From Thioalkalivibrio sp. XN279 (GTDB lineage: Bacteria; Pseudomonadota; Gammaproteobacteria; Steroidobacterales; XN24), in contig NZ_JAANBD010000025.1 in the NCBI RefSeq assembly GCF_011089885.1, forward strand, positions 124,001-188,000: a DNA stretch of 64,000 nt, read 5' to 3'. Positions 4,979 to 52,709 of the stretch are shown in pieces. The first letter of the stretch is position 1, and each line of letters opens with the position of its first letter. Position numbers and translations under genes: made by a program. The notes under the pieces are model-generated. The model made no database searches and was not told the origin of the DNA. It saw only the letters and a list, made by a program, of their open reading frames with translations.

Positions 4979-6331
4979 ATGAGTGCAGATCCCGCAAGAA
5001 TCGAGTGGCATCCGGGCAGCTGGCAGGCCCGGCCCGCCCTCCAGCAACCTGCGTACCCGGACGCAGCGGCGCTGAACGTCGTGGTGGAGCGCCTGTCGCG
5101 GTTGCCCCCGCTGGTGGTCTCGTGGGAAGTCGAGGCGTTGAAAAAGCAGATCGCGCGCGCCCAGCGCGGCGAGGCTTTCCTCCTGCAGGGCGGCGACTGC
5201 GCCGAGAATTTCTCCGACTGCAACTCCGACCAGATCGCGCGCAAGCTGAAGATCCTGCTGCAGGTGAGCGTGGTACTGCTGCACAGCCTGAAGAAACCCG
5301 TGATCCGCGTCGGGCGCATGGCGGGTCAGTACGCCAAGCCGCGCTCGGCAGACACCGAGACGCGCGACGGCGTGACGCTGCCGAGCTACCGCGGCGACCT
5401 GGTGAACCGCAACGCCTTCACGCCGCAGGACAGGGCGCCGGACCCCGAGCTCATGCTCGAGGGTTACCATCGCGCGGCGCTGACGCTCAACTTCGTGCGT
5501 GCGCTGGCGGAGGGCGGCTTCGCCGACCTGCACCACCCGGAGTACTGGGACATCGGCTTCGCCAAGTCGACGCCCTTCGAGCAGGCCTACAAGCGCATCG
5601 TCAAGAGCATCACGGACTCGATGGATTTCTTCGAGTTCATCTCCGGGCAGCCCGTGCACCGCACCCGGCGCATCGACTTCTACGCCTCGCACGAGGGCCT
5701 GCACCTGCTGTACGAGCAGGCGCAGACGCGCCTGATCGAGCGCTGGGGCCGCTGGTACAACCTCTCCACGCATTACCCCTGGATCGGCATGCGCACGGCG
5801 CAGCTCGATGGGGCCCACGTGGAGTATTTCCGCGGTATCGCGAACCCGGTCGCGGTGAAGGTCGGCTCGGGCATGAGCGTCGAGTGGCTGGAAGGCCTGC
5901 TCGACGTGCTCAATCCCGGCAACGAGCCCGGCCGCCTGACGCTGATTCACCGCTTCGGCTCCGGCAAGATCGCCGAGCACCTCCCGGCCATGATCGACGC
6001 CGTGCGCGCCAAGGGGGCCACCGTGCTGTGGGTGTGTGACCCCATGCACGGCAACACCGAGACCACCTCGAGCGGCATCAAGACACGCAGTTTCGATCGC
6101 ATCCTCTCCGAGGTGGAGCAGGCTTTCCGTATCCACGAGGAAATGGGCAGTTACCTCGGCGGCGTGCATTTCGAGCTCACCGGCGACGACGTCACCGAGT
6201 GCATCGGCGGGGCGCGCGGGCTTACCGAGGCCGACCTCGAGCGCGCCTACCTTTCCCAGGTGGACCCGCGGCTGAACTACGAGCAGGCCCTCGAGCTGGC
6301 GATGCGGATCGCGGAGCTGCGCGGGCGCTGA
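4979..6331 (+). CDS. Class II 3-deoxy-7-phosphoheptulonate (DAHP) synthase
   Basis: 450 residues. It condenses phosphoenolpyruvate with erythrose 4-phosphate, the first step of the shikimate pathway. It is the plant/mycobacterial type II form, recognisable from [13 protein letters not shown] near residue 65, [14 protein letters not shown], the [17 protein letters not shown] block and CDPMHGNT. An upstream in-frame extension to 3260 lies antisense to the lysine operon and is rejected; ATG 4979 gives the family-typical N-terminus EWHPGSWQ. The last 110 bases overlap the 3' end of the convergent rluE gene. Confidence 0.95.
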
Positions 6332-6887
6332 GCCAGTCCGGCGGGACTTCCACCTCGCGCCATTCCCCCGGCTGCAGTCCCGCGAGGCTGAACGGCCCCA
6401 CCCCGGTGCGCACCAGCCGCAGGGTCGGGTAGCCGACCGCGGCGGTCATGCGCCTGACCTGGCGATTGCGGCCCTCGCGGATGCGCAACTCCAGCCAGCT
6501 GTCCGGGATTTCGCGCCGCACGCGTATCGGCGGATCCCGCGGCCACAACTCCGGCGCCGGCATGCACCGGGCCTGCGCCGGCAGGGTAAGCCCGTCTTTC
6601 AGCTCGACCCCGGCGCGCAGGGCGCGCAGTGCCGCCGCGTCGGGAATCCCCTCGACCTGCGCCCAGTACGTCTTCCAGGTGCGGTGGCGCGGCTGGCTCA
6701 GCAGGGCCTGGAGCCGGCCGTCATCCGTGAGCAGCAGCAGGCCCTCGCTATCGAAGTCGAGCCGCCCCGCCGGGTATACGCCGGGCACGTCGATGTAGGC
6801 GGCGAGGGTGGCGCGCGCGCCGCTGGCGCTGAACTGGCTCAGCACGTGAAACGGCTTGTTGAAGAGTAGGAGGCGGGGCCCGCTCAT
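6222..6887 (-). CDS. rluE: 23S rRNA pseudouridine(2457) synthase RluE
   Basis: 221 residues. Starts at the only Met before [15 protein letters not shown], the typical RsuA/RluE opening. [18 protein letters not shown] holds the catalytic Asp (GRLD motif), and [13 protein letters not shown] is the conserved C-terminal block of this subfamily. Length and short N-terminus (no S4 domain) point to RluE rather than RluB or RsuA. After EVEVPPDW, where homologues usually end, the frame continues for about 37 residues of Arg/Pro/Ala-rich sequence antisense to the end of the DAHP synthase gene. This tail is probably not conserved. Confidence 0.87.
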
Positions 6888-8273: not shown

Positions 8274-9872
8274 ATGACCCACGCACCGTCCGACACTGGT
8301 TACCGGATCCTCGGCCCCATGCGCCCCGGCTACGAGGAAATTCTCACCACCGAAGCGATGAATTTCCTTGCGGACCTCGCGCGCCGCTTCGGGCCCCGGG
8401 TCGACGAGTTGCTGGAGCGGCGCAAGGTCCGCCAGGCGGACATCGATGCCGGGACGATGCCGGATTTCCTGCCCGAGACTGCGGATATCCGCGCCGGTGA
8501 CTGGCGTGTTGGCGAGATCCCGGCCGACCTGCAGGACCGCCGCGTGGAGATCACCGGGCCGGTCGATCGCAAGATGATCATCAATGCGCTCAACTCCGGC
8601 GCCAAGGTGTTCATGGCGGATTTCGAGGACTCGATGACGCCGGCCTGGGACAACCTGCTGCCGGGCCAGCTCGCATTGCGCGACGCGGTGGCGCGCACCA
8701 TCAGCTTCACCTCGCCGGAAGGCAAGCAGTACCAGCTCAAGGACCAGGTGGCGACGCTGTTCGTGCGGCCGCGGGGCTGGCACCTGTTCGAGAAGCACGT
8801 CGAAGTCGATGGACGCCAGGTGCCCGGCGGACTGTTCGACTTCGGGCTGTACCTGTTCCACAACGCCCAGGCCACCAAAGAGATCGGCTCGGGCCCGTAC
8901 TTCTACCTGCCGAAGCTGGAGAGCCACGTCGAGGCCCGGCTGTGGGCCGAAGTGTTCCGCTATGCCGAGGATGCCCTCGGGCTCGAGCGCGGCACCATCA
9001 AGTGCACGGTGCTGATCGAGACCATTCTCGCGGCCTTCGAGATCGACGAGATCCTGTACGAGCTGCGTGAGCACATCGTCGGCCTGAATTGCGGTCGGTG
9101 GGACTACATCTTCAGCTTTATCAAGAAGTTCCAGAACTATCCTGAGTTTACACTTCCAGACCGGCACCAGGTCACCATGGCCACGCACTTCCTGCGCTCC
9201 TACTCGCAGCTGGTGATCAAGACCTGCCACCGCCGCGGCGCGCTGGCGATCGGCGGCATGGCGGCGCAGATCCCGATCAAGGGCGATCCCGAGGCCAACG
9301 AGGCCGCGCTCGCCAAGGTGCGTGCCGACAAGGAGCGCGAGGCCGGCGACGGCCACGACGGCACCTGGGTGGCGCACCCCGGCCTGGTCCCGGTCGCGAT
9401 GGAGATTTTCGACCAGCACATGCCGAATCCGAACCAGCTCGACCGCCTGCGCGAGGACGTCGAGGTCTCGGCGGCGGACCTGCTGCAGATGCCGGAAGGC
9501 GATATCACCGAGACCGGCCTGCGCAGCAACGTGTCCGTGGGCATCCAGTACATGGCCGCATGGCTCGGCGGCAACGGCTGCGTGCCGCTGTACAACCTGA
9601 TGGAGGACGCCGCCACGGCCGAGATCGCCCGGGCGCAGATATGGCAGTGGATCCGGCATCCGCAGGGCGTGCTGGACGACGGACGCAAGGTTACTTACGC
9701 CTTGTACGAACAGATTCGAGACGAAGAATTGGCCAAGATCAGGGAAGAAGTGGGCGGGGACGCATTCTCCTCGGGTCACTACACAGAGGCGGCCAAGCTG
9801 CTCGACCGGATCACGGCCGAGAAGCATTGCATGGACTTCCTGACGCTGGTGGCCTACGAGGCCATCGACTGA
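8274..9872 (+). CDS. aceB: Malate synthase A
   Basis: 532 residues, the size of E. coli AceB. Condenses glyoxylate and acetyl-CoA to malate. The start ATG 8274 follows GAGAAGGA. Diagnostic stretches are [20 protein letters not shown] (Mg-binding acidic loop), FVRPRGWHL, and [15 protein letters not shown]. It is followed 35 bases later by isocitrate lyase, so the two glyoxylate shunt enzymes form one operon in the order B-A. This bypass allows net gluconeogenesis from acetyl-CoA delivered by the beta-oxidation genes elsewhere in the window. Confidence 0.96.
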
Positions 9873-9907
9873 GGGGACACCGGGGACATCACACAGAGGA
9901 ACACGCG

Positions 9908-11188
<1,281 letters not shown>

Positions 11189-46432: not shown

Positions 46433-48376
46433 GTGAAGATCACCGACGTCCTCGTCATCGGCGCCGGCCTGGCCGGCGAGCGTTGCGCCATCGAGGCAGC
46501 TGCGGCGGGCCACTCGGTCCTGATCCTGTCCCTGGTCCCGCCGCGACGCAGCCACAGCTGCGCGGCCCAGGGCGGCATGCAGGCGGCACTGGGGAACTGC
46601 GCCAAGGCCGAAGGGGATAATCCCGACGTGCATTTTCTCGACACGGTGCGCGGTTCGGACTGGGGCGCGGACCAGGAAGTCGCGCGCATCTTCGCCGACA
46701 ACGCCCCCATCGCCGTGCGCGAGCTGGCGCACTTCGGCGTGCCATGGACCCGGGTGAGGCCCGGGAAGAACCGCTACCACATCAAGGGCGAGCAGGTCGA
46801 AATCGACGAGCCTGCGGACAAGGCCGGCCTGATCATGCACCGCGACTTCGGTGGCACGGCCAAGTGGCGCGCCTGCTACGCCGCCGCGGGCACCGGGCAC
46901 GCCACGCTTTATGCAGTGGACAGCCAGGTCGTGCGGCTCGGTATCGACGTGCTCGACCGCATGGAGGCCATTGCGCTGATCCACGACGGCGAACGTTGCC
47001 ACGGTGCGGTCGTGCGTTGCCTGCGCACGGGGCGTCTCGACACCGTGCTCGCCCGGGCCACGGTGATCGCCACCGGCGGCTACGGGCGCATCTACGGCGG
47101 CTACACCAGCAACGCGGTGATCAACGAGGGCACCGGCGCAGCGCTCGCGCTCGACACCGGGATCGTGCCGCTGGGCAACATGGAGGCCGTGCAGTTTCAT
47201 CCCACCGGTCTCTGGCCGGCAGGGATTCTCGTCACCGAGGGTTGCCGCGGTGACGGCGGCTACCTGCTCAACGCAGCCGGCGACCGGTTCCTGGTCGAGC
47301 TGGAGCCGGAGAAACAGGAGCTCGCCAGTCGCGACGTGGTGTCGCGTCACATGATGAACGAGATACTCGCGGGGCGCGGGGTCGACAGCGCGAACGGCCC
47401 GCACTTGTGGCTGGACCTGCGTCATCTCGGCGAGGAGCACCTGACGACGCGGCTGCGCGAGATCTACGAGATCTGCCGCGACTTTCTCGGCATCACCCCC
47501 TGGCAGGAACTCGTGCCGGTGCGGCCGACGCAGCATTACTCCATGGGCGGCGTGCGCGTGAACAAGGACGGCCAGGCCTATGGCCTGTCGGGACTGTTTG
47601 CGGTGGGCGAAGCTGCCTGCTGGGACATGCACGGCTTCAACCGCCTCGGCGGCAACAGCCTGGCCGAGACCATCGTCGCCGGCCGCGTGGTCGGCATGTC
47701 CATTGCTGATTTCGTGGCGCGGGGCGGACCGGGGCCTGAAGCCGCCCTGGCTGCGAGCGCGCTGGCCGCACAGCAAGCACGGATCACGGCGCTGGCGGCC
47801 CGCCCGGCCGGCGGACGTACCCTGTACCAGGTGCGCGACGAAATGGGCGAAATCATGATGAACCGGCTCGGCGTGTTTCGCACCGGGGACGAGATCGAGA
47901 CCGCCGTGGCGGACCTGCAGCACCTGCTGCGCGAGGTATCGACCATGGGGCTGCGCTCGAGCAGCCCCGGGCTCAACCCCGAGTTGACCTATGCGCTGCG
48001 ACTGCCCGGGATGCTGAAACTCGCCCTCGCCACCGCGCTCGGGGCCCTGGCGCGCAAGGAAAGCCGCGGCGCCCATTACCGCACCGATTATCCGCAGCGC
48101 GACGACGCCGAATGGCTCAAGCGTACGCTGGCACGCTGGCAGCCGGGCGCGGAGGCGCCGGACCTCAGCTACGAGCCCGTGGGCCTGCTCGACCTGCCGC
48201 CGGGGCATCGTGGCTACGGCGCTTCAGGCCATGTGGACCTGCCCGTCACCCTGGAGGAGTACAACCAGGGCGTGGCGAGTGCCCAGGCGGCCCAGGGTTG
48301 CCTGGAGACGAAAGAACCCATCGGTGCCCGCCTGCGGCCCGGCGCGTGGCGCGGCGCGTTCAGCGCGCCGAGCTGA
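46433..48376 (+). CDS. frdA: Fumarate reductase/succinate dehydrogenase flavoprotein subunit
   Basis: 647 residues starting with GTG 46433. FAD-binding VLVIGAGLAGERCAIEA at the N-terminus, then RRSHSCAAQGGMQAALGN with the His that attaches FAD covalently. HPTGLWPAGILVTEGCRGDGG and SRDVVSRHMM hold the dicarboxylate site with its catalytic Arg; GLFAVGEAACWDMHGFNRLGG-type C-terminal capping follows. It interconverts succinate and fumarate. Direction cannot be read from sequence. Confidence 0.95.
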   Translation: MKITDVLVIGAGLAGERCAIEAAAAGHSVLILSLVPPRRSHSCAAQGGMQAALGNCAKAEGDNPDVHFLDTVRGSDWGADQEVARIFADNAPIAVRELAHFGVPWTRVRPGKNRYHIKGEQVEIDEPADKAGLIMHRDFGGTAKWRACYAAAGTGHATLYAVDSQVVRLGIDVLDRMEAIALIHDGERCHGAVVRCLRTGRLDTVLARATVIATGGYGRIYGGYTSNAVINEGTGAALALDTGIVPLGNMEAVQFHPTGLWPAGILVTEGCRGDGGYLLNAAGDRFLVELEPEKQELASRDVVSRHMMNEILAGRGVDSANGPHLWLDLRHLGEEHLTTRLREIYEICRDFLGITPWQELVPVRPTQHYSMGGVRVNKDGQAYGLSGLFAVGEAACWDMHGFNRLGGNSLAETIVAGRVVGMSIADFVARGGPGPEAALAASALAAQQARITALAARPAGGRTLYQVRDEMGEIMMNRLGVFRTGDEIETAVADLQHLLREVSTMGLRSSSPGLNPELTYALRLPGMLKLALATALGALARKESRGAHYRTDYPQRDDAEWLKRTLARWQPGAEAPDLSYEPVGLLDLPPGHRGYGASGHVDLPVTLEEYNQGVASAQAAQGCLETKEPIGARLRPGAWRGAFSAPS

Positions 48377-48390
48377 GGAGGAGGGCGGCC

Positions 48391-49143
48391 ATGACCATGT
48401 CGAAAGCGCGCAAGCTCAAGTTCGAGATCTTCCGTTACAACCCGGAGGATCCGGCCTCGAAGCCGCGTATGGAGACCTTCGAGCTCCAGGAAACCCCTTT
48501 CATGTCGCTGTTCATCGCACTTAATAAGTTACGTGAGGAACAGGATCCAAGTCTCCAATTTGACTTCGTTTGCAGGTCGGCAGTCTGCGGTTCCTGCGGC
48601 ATGATGGTGAACGGGCGACCGGCGCTGGCCTGCAAGACCCTGACGGCCCAGCTCGAGAGCACCATCCGGTTGCACCCGTTGCCGGCGTTCCGGCTGGTCG
48701 GCGACCTGTCGGTGGATACGGGCAGCTGGTTTCGCGGCATGACCGAGCGCGTGCAGGGCTGGATCGACGAAAAGGCGCCGTTTGATCCGAATGCACAGGA
48801 AGAGCGGATGGACGACGAGCTCGCCCAAGCGATTTACGAACGCGAGCGTTGCATCGAGTGCGGCTGCTGCGTGGCGTCCTGCGCCGTGGCCAACACCCGG
48901 CCGGCCTTCGTTGCGCCCGCCGGGCTGAATCGTGTCGCGCGCTTCATGATGGATCCGCGGGACCGGCGCAAGACGGGCGACTGGTTCGAGGTCTTCGCCA
49001 GTGACGAGGGCGTCTTCGGTTGCCTGGGCCTGATGGCCTGCCAGGACGTGTGCCCGAAAGAGCTGCCGCTGCGCGAGGTCTACGCTTACCTGCGCCGCAA
49101 GGCACTCACGGGCGTGTTGAGCAGGAAAGCCAAGCCCGTCTAG
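48391..49143 (+). CDS. frdB: Fumarate reductase/succinate dehydrogenase iron-sulfur subunit
   Basis: 250 residues from ATG 48391 behind AGGAGGAGG. Three cluster motifs in order: 2Fe-2S (CRSAVCGSCGMM...ALAC, about residues 57-77), 4Fe-4S (CIECGCCVASC) and 3Fe-4S (CLGLMACQDVCPK). Passes electrons between FrdA and FrdC. A longer frame to 48112 lies inside frdA and is rejected. A GTGTTTC/GAAACAC inverted repeat (49163-49196) follows the stop. Confidence 0.95.
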   Translation: MTMSKARKLKFEIFRYNPEDPASKPRMETFELQETPFMSLFIALNKLREEQDPSLQFDFVCRSAVCGSCGMMVNGRPALACKTLTAQLESTIRLHPLPAFRLVGDLSVDTGSWFRGMTERVQGWIDEKAPFDPNAQEERMDDELAQAIYERERCIECGCCVASCAVANTRPAFVAPAGLNRVARFMMDPRDRRKTGDWFEVFASDEGVFGCLGLMACQDVCPKELPLREVYAYLRRKALTGVLSRKAKPV

Positions 49144-49524
49144 GGATCGCAGAGCCGGGAAAGTGTTTCACGGCAAGATGAGCCCTAAAGAAACACGCGT
49201 AACTAGCTGTTAAAACAAACGGAAACGTAATAGGGGATATTGTCGTGCCGGGTGAAATGGGCTCCCCATATCTATACGCGACTTAACATAATATACATTA
49301 TGCGCAGTTGTTGACGTAGCCCCCCAAGCTGCGGCAAGCTCTCAGCGTCCATTGGCGCTTCCCTTCGGGATAGACGCCCCGACCGGCAAACAGGCGACTG
49401 GTCGAGAGCCCCGGGTGGACACCGGGCCCCAGCCGAGCGAAATGCCAGGCTTAAAAAGGGACCAAAGGTCCCGAGGGGAAGCGGGCCGAGTGGCAGCGCA
49501 GCTCTGCTACTTGATGGTAGAGCT
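49144..49524. other. Non-coding stretch: frdB tail, dif and structured leader of the integrated element
   Basis: No protein gene seen. 49163-49196 is a 7-bp inverted repeat (GTGTTTC/GAAACAC) with a 20-base loop, a weak terminator candidate. 49197-49280 is AT-rich relative to the region. 49281-49308 is the dif site. From 49309 the sequence changes to GC-rich with many short hairpins, e.g. TCCC/GGGA around TTC and GGGACC/GGTCCC around AAA (49460-49475), as in the intergenic regions of filamentous phages. TTGACG at 49311-49316 could be a -35 box. Confidence 0.55.
49281..49308 (-). other. dif: Chromosome dimer resolution site dif
   Basis: On the + strand: XerD-side arm ACTTAACATAA, 6-base spacer TATACA, XerC-side arm TTATGCGCAGT. 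Read on the minus strand this matches the E. coli dif at 25 of 28 positions; the differences are one base in the outer XerD arm and two at the outer XerC end. XerC/XerD resolve chromosome dimers here at division, under FtsK control. It marks the replication terminus region. It forms the left junction of the element at 49291-50378. Confidence 0.93.
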
Positions 49525-49542
49525 ATGCCCGAGGGTCGGGCC

Positions 49543-49890
49543 ATGACGAATCCGACCCGCCTGAACATCTTCTACGGTACGCCCGCTCGCGTGGTGGCTG
49601 AATGGTGCGAGGTCCATCCGAACACGGCCTACCAGTACAAGCGCGGCGAACGCATCCCCAGTCCGCAGGCTCGCCGCCTGTTCCTGCTGCACCGTGACGG
49701 CCGTGTGCTCAATGACGCCTGGGCAGGCTGGCGCATTACCGCCGATCGCCTCATTGACCCGCAGGGTCAAGTCACGACGCAGGGCCAGCTCCGCGCCTAT
49801 GTCCTCGTCTACCAGCTCGCCGCCGAGCTCGCTCGCCATGTCCCCGGGGCTCAGGAGCGGTTCTACAGCATCTTCCGGGAGGCCGTCTGA
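49543..49890 (+). CDS. Phage protein, DUF3653-like, in the dif element
   Basis: 115 residues from ATG 49543, which follows GAGGG at proper spacing; an ATG at 49525 is the alternative, with a GCCCGA/TCGGGC hairpin between the two. RLNIFYGTPARVVAEWCEVHPNTAYQYKRGER looks like a short helix-turn-helix, and ARRLFLLHRDGRVLNDAWAGWRI is the part I associate with DUF3653 proteins of Xanthomonas-type filamentous phages, where they sit near the origin/regulatory end. Probably a DNA-binding regulator. The family call is from memory. Confidence 0.65.
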   Translation: MTNPTRLNIFYGTPARVVAEWCEVHPNTAYQYKRGERIPSPQARRLFLLHRDGRVLNDAWAGWRITADRLIDPQGQVTTQGQLRAYVLVYQLAAELARHVPGAQERFYSIFREAV

Positions 49891-50033
49891 TGGTGACCCT
49901 GACCACCCTCTCCGAAACCGTGTTCCGGCTCCTGCTGCGGTTACGCCTTCACCGGCTCGCCTCGAGCTGGGCGCACGCATCCGGCCTCGTGTGGCTCCGG
50001 TGCCAGGCTTTGAAGGGTGAGTCCCATGACTGA
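49890..50033 (+). CDS. Small coupled reading frame in the dif element (47 aa)
   Basis: MVTLTTLSETVFRLLL... ending KGESHD. The ATG overlaps the stop of the DUF3653-like gene (TGATG), the usual sign of translational coupling in filamentous phage operons. The peptide is Leu/Arg-rich with an amphipathic stretch but no recognisable domain. No homologue recognised. Could be a phage small protein or a chance frame. Confidence 0.4.
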   Translation: MVTLTTLSETVFRLLLRLRLHRLASSWAHASGLVWLRCQALKGESHD

Positions 50034-50441
50034 CTCGCGCCGTCCATCGTCACCGCCGCGCGCCCAAGGTACGAAGGGCGCCGGCGTCCCCTGTCGCCAC
50101 CCCCAGCGGCCTACCCCTACCCCCTGCACTTACCCCCGACCCCGGCGGCCTGGTCAGCCCTCTCTTGTGCGCGAAGCGCACGCCGAACGGCCTTTCCCTG
50201 TTGCGCAAATCCAGCCCCGAAGCTGCCCCGCGGCCCCCGCATTATCCGGACTGGATAGACCTGCCTCGCGTCATGTAGACTTAGCAGAAATTCCTTGCCA
50301 ATCAGGTGACTCGATTCCCTGTCGTAACCCCAACGACGGGGGCTTTTCGGCTGCCCCAAGATATACATTATGCGCAGTGCGTCCGGTATGCGCCCGAGGC
50401 CCTGGCGTGTGGCTGGGACCTTCCAGGCAGTCCAGGTTTGA
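50034..50441. other. Non-coding right end of the dif element and downstream spacer
   Basis: A C-rich stretch (50050-50190, several runs of CCCC), then a more AT-rich part. 50321-50347 reads GTCGT...ACGAC nested with CCCC/GGGG followed by CTTTT, a likely terminator at the element end. The right repeat is at 50361-50378. 50379-50441 is host sequence before the stop of the CBM/TPR gene. A frame from 50026 crosses the right repeat into that gene and is not believed. Confidence 0.5.
50361..50378 (+). repeat. Right direct repeat (partial dif) of the integrated element
   Basis: ATATACATTATGCGCAGT, identical to 49291-49308. Preceded by CTGCCCCAAG instead of the XerD arm, so XerD should bind poorly here and the left copy should be the working dif. 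Confidence 0.9.
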
Positions 50442-52106
50442 TCAGTCCGCGACCTGGCGCCGCAGACTTTCGTACTCTTCCTTCAACCCGGCTTGGGCGG
50501 GTCCCGCGTCCAGGGCCATGCGGTAGAAGCGCAGCGCCGCTTCTGTCTTGCCTCGCTCCCTCGAGATCACGGCGAAGCCCCACAGCGCGTACTGGTTGCC
50601 CGGATCCAGCATCCACGCCTGATTGAAGCGCTTGATCGCAACGGTTTTGTTGTCCTGGTAGTAGAAGTTCCACCCCGTCCGTGCAAAATGCTCGGCCGCT
50701 GCGGCGCGGTCGCCCTGGAATCCGGGCAGTACCATTTCCAGGAACTTCTCGTCGGTGGTCTTCTGCCACGCCGTCTTCTCGTAGCCGCCGAACATCGGCA
50801 GCTCGTTGACCGGGACCCAGATGTCGGCTTCCCGGGACAGGCCTGCGGGCACGTTTTTCATCAGCGGCTCACGCCGCAGGCGCACGTCGTCAACGAAAAA
50901 GGTGATTGAGCCATCCGTTTGAAGCGCTGCAATCCCCCAGCCATGAACCGCAGAGAGACCCAGCCCGTCGTTCGGCGCGCCGTTCCAGATCTCCTTCCGG
51001 GCCATGATCTCGAGGGGAATGGACATCAGCCTCCAGCCGGAGAAGGCATCGGCGAACTCGTATGAATAGCGTTCGGCATCGTCCAAGACCGAGCACAGAC
51101 GGCGGTTGTCGAGCACGTCGATGACCAGCCGCGTTCCACTGTCGTTGCCGTGGAACCAAAAGCTCAGTTCGAGCGCGCCGCTCCAGTCATAGCCGAGCCA
51201 CTCGTCGACGGTTTCGTTAGCAAAGCGATGCAGGACACCCGCCCAGGTGTCGACCTCCAGCTCGAGTTTCAGCACGGAATTCCCCGGCCTCTCCCCGGGC
51301 ACTGGAGGATGATCCGGAGTGGTGGAAATGCGCGCCCTGCTCCTGTCGCCGTTGAAGGTGGAGAAGCCCAGGGGGATGCCGTGGGGATCGAAGCCACTGG
51401 GGAGCCCGGTCTCAAAACCATCTATCAGGTCTGAGGCGGGCTGGGTGGGGATCCTGGTCGGCGCCGCTCCTGCGCAGGGTTCCACCCTCGCGAGCTGTTG
51501 CTTGAGGGCCTGCATGGCCACCCGGGTCGCGTTCTCGATCATGGCGTCCCTTGCGGCCTGGGACTCGCCGGCAACCAGCCCCGCCGCGGCGAACATCTGG
51601 TGGTGCTCGTTGAGAAGGAAGGAGAAGGCGTTCTCCCCTGCCGCGTTCACGACGTAGCACTGGATTCCGAACACCACGCGGTCATCCGGGACCAGGATTT
51701 CCAGGACCAGGCTGTATCCGGCATCCACGGGCGCCTCCGCCAGCTGCCCGGCGACGGTCGCCAGCCCGCCCTGGAAGATGTTCCATTGTGAGTCCGGCAA
51801 CATTCGGCCCCGGTCGATGCGCTTGTGTGCTGCGATTGCCCGACCCGTCCCCTCCTCGTTCAGGAATGCGATCACCAGTTCCTGGGACTTGAAAGAATGG
51901 GCCGAACGCTCGGCGCGCCGGATAATGGTCGGATACACCGCGATGGTGGCTCCGCCCAGGTCGGCAAGAAACCGGGCCTCTGCGGGGGCTTCCGGACGAA
52001 AGCCCGGCTCGGGTGAGGTCGACTCGGCCTTGTGTGCGTTGCCCAGCGGCGATGCGAGCAGCAAGGCGACCAGCGCCAGGCCGGTAGCAACTTTCATGGC
52101 TTTCAT
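50442..52106 (-). CDS. Exported protein with CBM11-like and TPR-like regions, function unknown
   Basis: 554 residues with a signal peptide ending near GNAHA (start ATG 52106 behind GGAG). Residues about 40-200 show no domain I recognise. Residues about 225-410 resemble a carbohydrate-binding module of CBM11/galactose-binding type: LIDGFETG opening, DWSGALELSFWFHGNDSGTR, FSGWRLMSIPLEIM and a closing SITFFVDDVRL. The last 90 residues contain a TPR-like pair (AIKRFNQAWMLDPGNQYALWGFAV). A periplasmic glycan- or ligand-binding role is conceivable. The stop lies 63 bases from the right end of the dif element. Confidence 0.6.
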   Translation of the reverse strand: MKAMKVATGLALVALLLASPLGNAHKAESTSPEPGFRPEAPAEARFLADLGGATIAVYPTIIRRAERSAHSFKSQELVIAFLNEEGTGRAIAAHKRIDRGRMLPDSQWNIFQGGLATVAGQLAEAPVDAGYSLVLEILVPDDRVVFGIQCYVVNAAGENAFSFLLNEHHQMFAAAGLVAGESQAARDAMIENATRVAMQALKQQLARVEPCAGAAPTRIPTQPASDLIDGFETGLPSGFDPHGIPLGFSTFNGDRSRARISTTPDHPPVPGERPGNSVLKLELEVDTWAGVLHRFANETVDEWLGYDWSGALELSFWFHGNDSGTRLVIDVLDNRRLCSVLDDAERYSYEFADAFSGWRLMSIPLEIMARKEIWNGAPNDGLGLSAVHGWGIAALQTDGSITFFVDDVRLRREPLMKNVPAGLSREADIWVPVNELPMFGGYEKTAWQKTTDEKFLEMVLPGFQGDRAAAAEHFARTGWNFYYQDNKTVAIKRFNQAWMLDPGNQYALWGFAVISRERGKTEAALRFYRMALDAGPAQAGLKEEYESLRRQVAD

Positions 52107-52343: not shown

Positions 52344-52709
52344 GTGTGGCCTTTTTCCCGTTCCAGGGACCGGAAGAACAAGTCAGCCGGCCGGTCCGAC
52401 AGCGCGCCGGCCAAAAAACCGCCGCGCTTCGACGCGGTCGAAGTCGTCCCCTCCGACTACGGCGCGTGCAATGCGGCCCGGGAACTCGCGGGCCAGCGAT
52501 TCCTGAGTAATCGGATGCCCAAGTTGCCGTTGCCCGAATGCGACAAGTCGCAGTGCGAGTGTGGTTACCGGCACCACAAGGATCGCCGCACGGAGGTGCG
52601 TCGGGTCGCCGATATGGACGGTTCGGTGTTGCAGCTTGCGGATAACGAACAGGATCGCCGGGACTCCGCCCGGCGCGGACGGCGCCGCACGGACAACACG
52701 CCCGCCTGA
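52344..52709 (+). CDS. Conserved hypothetical Cys/His-rich small protein
   Basis: 121 residues from GTG 52344, with a GGGGGG stretch upstream. The central part ACNAARELAGQRFLS, LPLPECDKSQCECGYRHHKDRR and RRGRRRTD looks conserved and not like a shadow frame. Cys-x4-Cys-x-Cys and two His could bind a metal. Very basic at both ends. I do not know a function; I believe similar proteins occur in Xanthomonadales-like genomes. A 237-base gap with nothing recognised precedes it. Confidence 0.6.
   Translation: MWPFSRSRDRKNKSAGRSDSAPAKKPPRFDAVEVVPSDYGACNAARELAGQRFLSNRMPKLPLPECDKSQCECGYRHHKDRRTEVRRVADMDGSVLQLADNEQDRRDSARRGRRRTDNTPA

Follow-up and report, generated by a model that had tools for sequence, protein, structure and literature searches.

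A 1.07-kb Xer-integrated element with a DUF3653 regulator at the chromosomal dif site of Thioalkalivibrio sp. XN279 is one of a recurrent class

The elements known as IMEX, such as CTXphi, GGI and LME-1, borrow the Xer machinery of their host at dif. RS1, a dif-associated satellite without virion genes of its own, carries rstA and is spread by a helper. TLCphi is also associated with Xer and dif, lacks its own virion genes and is spread by helper filamentous phages, and TLC combines an autonomous replication module with a XerD-first exchange (PMC4246890, in excerpt). GGI and LME-1 are flanked by a wild-type dif on one side and by a modified site on the opposite side (PMC9765430, in excerpt). 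In VGJphi the homology to dif is confined to the XerC side of attP, the part of the spacer adjoining the XerD site differs from dif, and integration proceeds by XerC only, from double-stranded DNA and reversibly (PMC4246890, in excerpt). Phages of this type measure 6.8-8.6 kb and, in the case of VGJphi, carry Rep, capsid, adsorption and Zot-like genes, while VGJphi, VEJphi and VFJphi all bear related regulators (orf136/orf135) beside attP that point away from it. According to an excerpt of PMC3731265, integration of VFJphi was undetected in its host, its regulatory module is common in integrated filamentous phages and is possibly a relic in VFJphi, and the regulators of integrated filamentous phages inhibit replication and virion genes. 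Acinetobacter also has arrays of small gene modules with Xer sites at their borders (dif/pdif modules). They lie on plasmids or at additional dif-like sites, and the main dif is held not to take part (PMC12907356, in excerpt). Finally, a few tailless prophages integrate at dif in Vibrio (PMC11630473, in excerpt).

The window analysed here is a stretch of 64,000 nucleotides from Thioalkalivibrio sp. XN279, in which a 1.07-kb segment of a kind already known (IMEX, VGJ-type) occupies the chromosomal dif. The segment is inserted at dif in the manner of IMEX, one end being a full dif and the opposite end an att copy, and has no integrase among its two candidate genes; it is smaller than CTXphi, GGI and LME-1, which have other attP types. 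Its att copy is homologous to dif on the XerC arm and the spacer and not on the XerD side, as in VGJ-type attP, and its regulator lies beside the site as in VGJphi, VEJphi and VFJphi. Unlike in VGJphi, the spacer is identical to that of dif, and, unlike VFJphi, the element is integrated. It resembles TLCphi and RS1 in carrying no virion genes and differs from TLC, with its replication module, and from the rstA-bearing RS1 in having no replication gene. The Acinetobacter modules lie away from the main dif and have complete XerC/XerD sites on both sides, whereas here the main dif and a single half-site are used, and the gene enclosed is a phage regulator. In the open PMC literature we found no description of a replication-less, regulator-only element of about 1 kb that recurs and stacks.

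The first-pass annotation had placed a near-perfect gammaproteobacterial dif at 49281-49308 and a partial repeat at 50361-50378, and had proposed a Xer-integrated element between them. Both sites were recovered, and the att copies together with the uniqueness of the dif supported that reading. The full dif (49281-49308, minus strand), which forms the left junction after integration, reads on the plus strand as XerD arm 49281-49291, spacer 49292-49297 and XerC arm 49298-49308. It was identical at 25 of 28 positions to the E. coli dif sequence, and it was the sole match at ≤3 mismatches in the 3.13-Mb genome of the host, so that a better dif elsewhere was not found. GC skew across 102 kb of the contig passed from +0.025 left of the site to -0.010 right of it, and counts of GGGNAGGG, the E. 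coli KOPS motif, changed from 8:1 (plus versus minus strand) to 1:8. Because both signals switch there, 49281-49308 is the functional dif by position.

The 18-mer ATATACATTATGCGCAGT, made up of one base, the spacer and the XerC arm, had exactly two copies in the window, at 49291 and 50361, both on the plus strand, giving a repeat period of 1070 bp; an order-2 Markov model returned a chance expectation of 2e-10 per 1.1 kb for such a repeat. In the right junction (50361-50378, plus strand) the spacer and XerC arm were identical to dif, while the inner bases of the XerD arm differed at 6 of 9 positions. The right copy had been said to have lost its XerD arm: the arm is indeed absent, but by analogy its degeneracy is more plausibly the usual outcome of XerC-only integration than a loss, because VGJ-type attP has no homology on the XerD side (PMC4246890, in excerpt).

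On the left, the chromosomal flank (46433-49143, plus strand; frdA- and frdB-like genes) was syntenic in the same-genus genomes G001 and G002, up to the end of frdB, and partly so in G003 and G004. On the right, the CBM_11/TPR protein gene (50442-52106, minus strand) was kept in G001, where it also lies right of dif with a VIT1-like gene (PF01988, below its cut-off) and a 170-aa gene intervening. The latter has its counterpart in the window on the opposite side of the CBM_11 gene (window 52344-52709; 8389-8901 of G001 locus L042), and the DNA right of dif has therefore been rearranged. The element DNA was single-copy in the host, and in the six other genomes of the family it found 24-32 bp of dif only (five genomes) or nothing (the sixth), at odds with a sequence fixed between the two repeats. 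As for an empty dif, the candidate clean site in the window's own genus was rejected, G001 having other DNA right of dif, whereas an empty dif was seen in two congeners of G419, a genome considered below.

The element opens with a structured non-coding leader (49309-49542, plus strand), predicted as such by the first-pass annotation: folding of 49309-49548 gave a z of -2.85 and was more stable than all 200 shuffles. No Rfam family was matched at gathering score in the leader or the rest of the element; two sub-threshold matches on the element were taken as chance. The regulator follows on the same strand (49543-49890), in a frame open from 49525. The 121-aa frame 49525-49890 matched DUF3653 (PF12375) with 27.8 bits against a gathering cut-off of 22.4, which upheld the assignment to a DUF3653-like phage gene, and comparison with homologues makes ATG 49543 the likelier start. 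The frame is intact, overall GC is host-like, and the codon-position GC of 0.70/0.47/0.80 resembles that of frdA (0.73/0.50/0.87). An AF2 model (pLDDT 78.5, pTM 0.48) predicted three helices within residues 21-57, as in an N-terminal helix-turn-helix, and Foldseek against PDB gave weak matches only, several of them to HTH regulators (best E 0.72). The PHROG matching DUF3653 regulators, phrog_1668, is named 'tail assembly protein', a name that looks wrong; we set it aside for the window regulator as a likely mislabel, because other members have HTH domains and inovirus relatives are annotated as regulators.

A 47-codon frame (49890-50033, plus strand) overlaps the regulator stop (TGATG) and has coding-like codon-position GC (0.62/0.50/0.83). 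It had been described as a coupled frame; the overlap and composition stand, but no Pfam or PHROG family was matched, and it is perhaps not a gene. The right end (50034-50360) holds no supported gene. Two adjacent hairpins (50320-50338 and 50339-50357) immediately precede the right att copy, where a terminator had been proposed: the hairpins are there (z -2.0; 8 of 200 shuffles as stable), but the T run is only four long. Neither candidate gene was recognised in Pfam or PHROG as a Rep, coat, assembly or integrase gene, in line with the earlier remark that replication and coat genes are missing. The Inoviridae gene set (Zot/pI ATPase, coat, Rep) is thus absent from the element, and no Zot was found in the whole host genome.

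A search of the element against phages had been proposed, and at the DNA level it gave no relative: among 50,697 phage records nothing was found beyond the 28 bp of dif and one chance match. Element DNA of two further genomes with related regulators, G401 and G419, returned either only dif and one chance match or nothing. At the protein level the window regulator had four phage matches, namely the VEJ and VFJ regulators, each deposited twice, at a weak 31-33% identity (E 0.002-0.004). The related G401 regulator matched 28 phage records, from Vibrio phages (21) and from inoviruses of Stenotrophomonas (6) and Xanthomonas (phiLf); the Vibrio records included NO16-like phages, Vinavirales prophages and inoviruses, VGJ (orf136) and fs1 being among the last. 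The Vinavirales and NO16-like phages, the latter tailless, share the regulator type, but their records are 10-15 kb long. No phage record was matched by the G419 regulator, viral contigs searched with single regulators (window, G401, G419, G252) gave no relatives, and genome contigs searched with the window protein gave one remote 43-residue match in an actinobacterial MAG. The layout agrees with VGJphi, where orf136 (6102-6512, minus strand) starts about 30 bp from the functional attP (6544-6560, minus strand) and points away from it, as the window gene does from dif. The VGJphi attP also lies within a second regulator frame, orf154; none was seen in the window.

We then considered how often such a regulator accompanies dif. 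PF12375 was found at E ≤ 0.01 in 10 of the 296 genomes of the order, seven of them over the cut-off, and in all ten the gene lay within about 1 kb of dif, the farthest domain match being that of G262 at 1.03 kb. Three cases escaped this search: G052 and G108 were found genome-wide, with both matches of the former near dif and that of the latter beside it, whereas G067 was found only by looking around dif and is therefore uninformative on the rate of association. Within the genus of G191, a related protein occurred in 3 of 73 genomes, always beside dif, although G191 and G241 are themselves rows of the profile used. Profile A1, consisting of six rows (the window protein and five proteins of the order, G191 and G262 among them), linked the regulators lacking PF12375 or below its cut-off, G191 and G262 being its own rows. 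Two class-wide scans of 369 genomes each gave ten genomes with a match in all, the host of the window included, and nine of these (window, G303, G336, G419, G444, G628, G567, G633 and G401, the last with a variant dif) had at least one copy beside dif or a dif-like site. A second copy in G336 sits at a contig end, and in G524 a XerD-side half match lies 0.3 kb from the related gene. Among 123 fetched dif loci of the order, partly chosen for such matches and hence not a random sample, 13 had a related gene nearby. All 13 genes point away from dif, ten on the XerC side and three on the XerD side (G041, G142, G270). The second G052 copy lies about 3 kb off on the XerD side, behind what looks by eye like an IS21-like insertion, and the G241 regulator gene contains stop codons.

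Eleven elements of 0.93-2.5 kb, in nine genomes, carry a related regulator and are bounded by dif-type junctions. Both junctions were present in the window element (1070 bp), G098 (1904 bp) and G262 (2491 bp); the right site was one mismatch from consensus in G191 (1274 bp) and had two mismatches in G067 (1798 bp) and G108 (1787 bp), G108 being the weaker of this pair. In G444 a 930-bp element is followed by the start of a second copy, while G419 and G401 contain tandem elements of 1582 and 1605 bp and of 1417 and 1507 bp, respectively. G052, G041, G241 and G252 were left out, as no second junction was found. The PF12375 match was absent in the G419 and G108 regulators and below cut-off in G444, G191 and G262. 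The first-pass view that the window element would be among the smallest is right as to size, but the element is not unique, the same design recurring at 0.93-2.5 kb; the element is genuine and belongs to a recurrent class.

Identity between the two G419 copies was 97%, and the differences cluster mainly within one patch of about 70 bp. A 238-codon frame (9409-10125 of locus L094, and the second copy) differs between them by a 1-bp indel, and its 219-codon part from an inner start matched no family in Pfam or PHROG. The G419 element was missing from all four other congeners searched, two of which, G663 and G662, show dif, the other two giving no match at dif; the two with an empty dif have the same right flank. 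The distance to the conserved right-flank sequence is 60 bp from dif in G663 and 58 bp from the last half-site in G419. On its left side G419 has about 2.3 kb, with a dinB-like gene by eye, that is missing in G663, and the empty site is therefore precise on the right side only. In the G401 pair, similarity is confined to some 876 bp at the left end (84%), a patch of 63 bp (86%) and the final 166 bp (99.4%), the rest being different. These tandem arrays and the empty site in the G419 congeners point to repeated insertion of whole elements of this size at dif.

Some of the elements carry additional genes. G108 has a SIR2-like gene that scores marginally above cut-off, G262 encodes a protein of 291 aa that looks by eye like a membrane protein, and G098 one of 117 aa that has no Pfam family. 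A nucleosidase-domain protein follows the interrupted regulator of G241, where the right junction was not found. None of seven mini-element hosts had a Zot over cut-off (G067 and G108 being outside this set), with sub-threshold matches in G401 and G444, and no resident helper was therefore found. Rfam returned only a tRNA on eight related loci.

Larger relatives also use the site. G270 holds an inovirus beside dif, on the XerD side, with a DUF3653 gene and a Zot of 94 bits; G567 is inovirus-like, with a pI-like gene by eye and 7.2 kb between dif and half-site; G252 holds a Rep-bearing element (PF23343) whose right junction was not found. A corticovirus-like prophage lies beside dif in G234 (locus L071, 9485 onward), with PM2 P2 coat domains, an HUH-type Rep by eye and a DUF3653 regulator adjoining the site; the regulator thus occurs in unrelated dif-using viruses. 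In a tree of the regulators, those of the window, G262, G098, G191, G067 and G108 grouped with modest support (87/79), with G252 inside. The label of mini-element needed five changes on the tree, a value reached by 57 of 500 shuffles. The VGJ orf136 protein is on a very long branch and its exact place is therefore unsure.

Just upstream of the window regulator, a hairpin (49499-49524, plus strand) carries CTTGATG in its loop. CTTG^A is the nick context of some rolling-circle initiators, and the hairpin could be such a nick site. Hairpins with a CTTGA loop 5' of the regulator were strong in three elements, that of G191 being the weakest of the three: of 829 background sites, 3 matched the stability of the hairpin in G262, 6 that in G067 and 25 that in G191. 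The last two elements are relatives, so their hairpins are not independent. The window hairpin is weaker and not exceptional, 148 of the 829 sites being at least as stable, and none was found on this strand in G444, G108 or G419. Within 1.5 kb of dif, four CTTGA hairpins of at least 8 pairs were found against 1.58 expected, a mild excess, and one of these belongs to G121, a locus without such a regulator. VGJphi also has CTTGA-loop hairpins, in a region annotated 'distinctive'. These hairpins may, as a lead, be origins used by the Rep of a helper, and their role as a universal origin was rejected on the counts above.

Modules without DUF3653 were also found at dif. A second XerC half-site (≤1 mismatch, in sequence of up to 15 kb) was present at 6 of the 123 dif loci, three with DUF3653 and three without, compared with 0 of 123 for the reversed core used as a control. 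In G059 (L126, 7742-15160) three consecutive modules of about 2.2, 1.8 and 3.4 kb follow the main dif. Every one of them terminates in a CCCTTG-TATACATTAT half-site, and their right ends are similar over some 60 bp (CTGATAA ... GGCGAA-TTCGCC hairpin). The genes inside are ordinary, one being a LysR regulator according to Pfam and the others recognised by eye; this is an integron-like array at dif. Single dif-bounded modules occur in G026 (L048, 8815-9928; 1.09 kb, with a gene matching DUF6090 below cut-off) and G036 (L072, 2767-7283; 4.5 kb), and G267 and G156 (L077-L080) have dif-bounded modules whose two ends are on different contigs. The G026, G036, G267 and G156 modules have no recognised phage genes, and their right ends are similar.

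Taken together, we lean towards the reading that the 1.07-kb segment is a minimal, mobile VGJ-type element integrated by XerC and dependent on a helper, that is, a satellite. It would correspond to the 'attP plus lysogeny-regulator' module of a VGJphi-type filamentous phage. A circular double-stranded form would carry one attP, composed of the XerC arm, a dif-identical spacer and a degenerate XerD side, and would exchange strands with the chromosomal dif by XerC alone, an exchange that excision would reverse. Integration would rebuild a perfect dif on the left (frd side), which would leave chromosome dimer resolution unharmed, while the right side would retain a half-site. Expressed from the left end, the DUF3653 protein would be a DNA-binding repressor and, by analogy, would be expected to shut off replication and virion genes of its own phage kind. 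As the element has no Rep or virion genes, copying and transfer must come from outside, and a compatible dif-using phage would supply them in trans. A broader reading, which we put forward only tentatively and hold to be somewhat doubtful as a whole, places the element in a class of satellites, some 1-2.5 kb long, that would be widespread, so far undescribed and dependent on helpers. Each would combine a XerC attP of the VGJ type with a repressor of the DUF3653 type and a hairpin acting as rolling-circle origin, and an optional slot could hold cargo such as SIR2-like, membrane or unknown proteins. The main dif would be their integron-like landing site, on which they would stack in arrays and leave dimer resolution undisturbed.

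The recurrence of two-junction elements at 0.93-2.5 kb, and the pairing of two different mini-elements with shared ends in G401 and G419, would be left unexplained if the segment were a relic, namely a complete VGJ-type prophage that lost its replication and virion genes and persists, immobile, with its repressor kept as superinfection immunity. We regard this, the main rival reading, as rather unlikely, while several observations agree with it: the intact DUF3653 frame with host-like codon-position and overall GC, the single copy and the lack of Zot in the host, the existence of full inoviruses with DUF3653 beside dif (G270, with its Zot, and G567, pI-like by eye), the unremarkable ori-like hairpin and the want of a clean empty site in the genus, along with the possible relic status of the widespread VFJphi regulator module (PMC3731265, in excerpt). 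Circles of any content with a XerC half-site might instead be captured at the main dif as integron-like cassettes, by transformation or conjugation and without a phage helper, as the G059 array, the single G026 and G036 modules and the second half-sites at 6 of 123 non-randomly chosen loci would suggest. For the window this is improbable: its regulator is phage-type and placed as in VGJphi, and the CTGATAA/CCCTTG signature that marks the G059 modules is missing from the right end of the element. That a host gene near dif merely adjoins a fortuitous 18-bp repeat, or that the assembly is at fault, is scarcely credible; the genome is a single one in 29 contigs, but the contig involved spans 485 kb, the expectation of the repeat is minute and the same design in many genomes excludes the idea in practice. 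Of the two readings in the first-pass annotation, satellite or relic, we prefer the former for the window element, with reserve.

If the elements are satellites, those of 1-2.5 kb would be, to our knowledge, among the smallest DNA satellites, and they would reveal the minimal equipment of a Xer-borrowing element, namely half a dif, a repressor and an origin. It could then be tested whether a bare repressor with an att site protects hosts from dif-using phages. The mini-elements and the G059 array further suggest that genes can be captured at the chromosome terminus, and such capture at the main dif contrasts with the view from Acinetobacter that the main dif takes no part (PMC12907356, in excerpt). 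Finally, G041 (L066) has a ThsB-like TIR gene (PF08937, just over cut-off) on the XerC side of dif, at a distance of about 40 bp, and a similar TIR-like frame, by eye, lies about 2.2 kb from dif in G052 (L047); these genes near the terminus are possible defence cargo.
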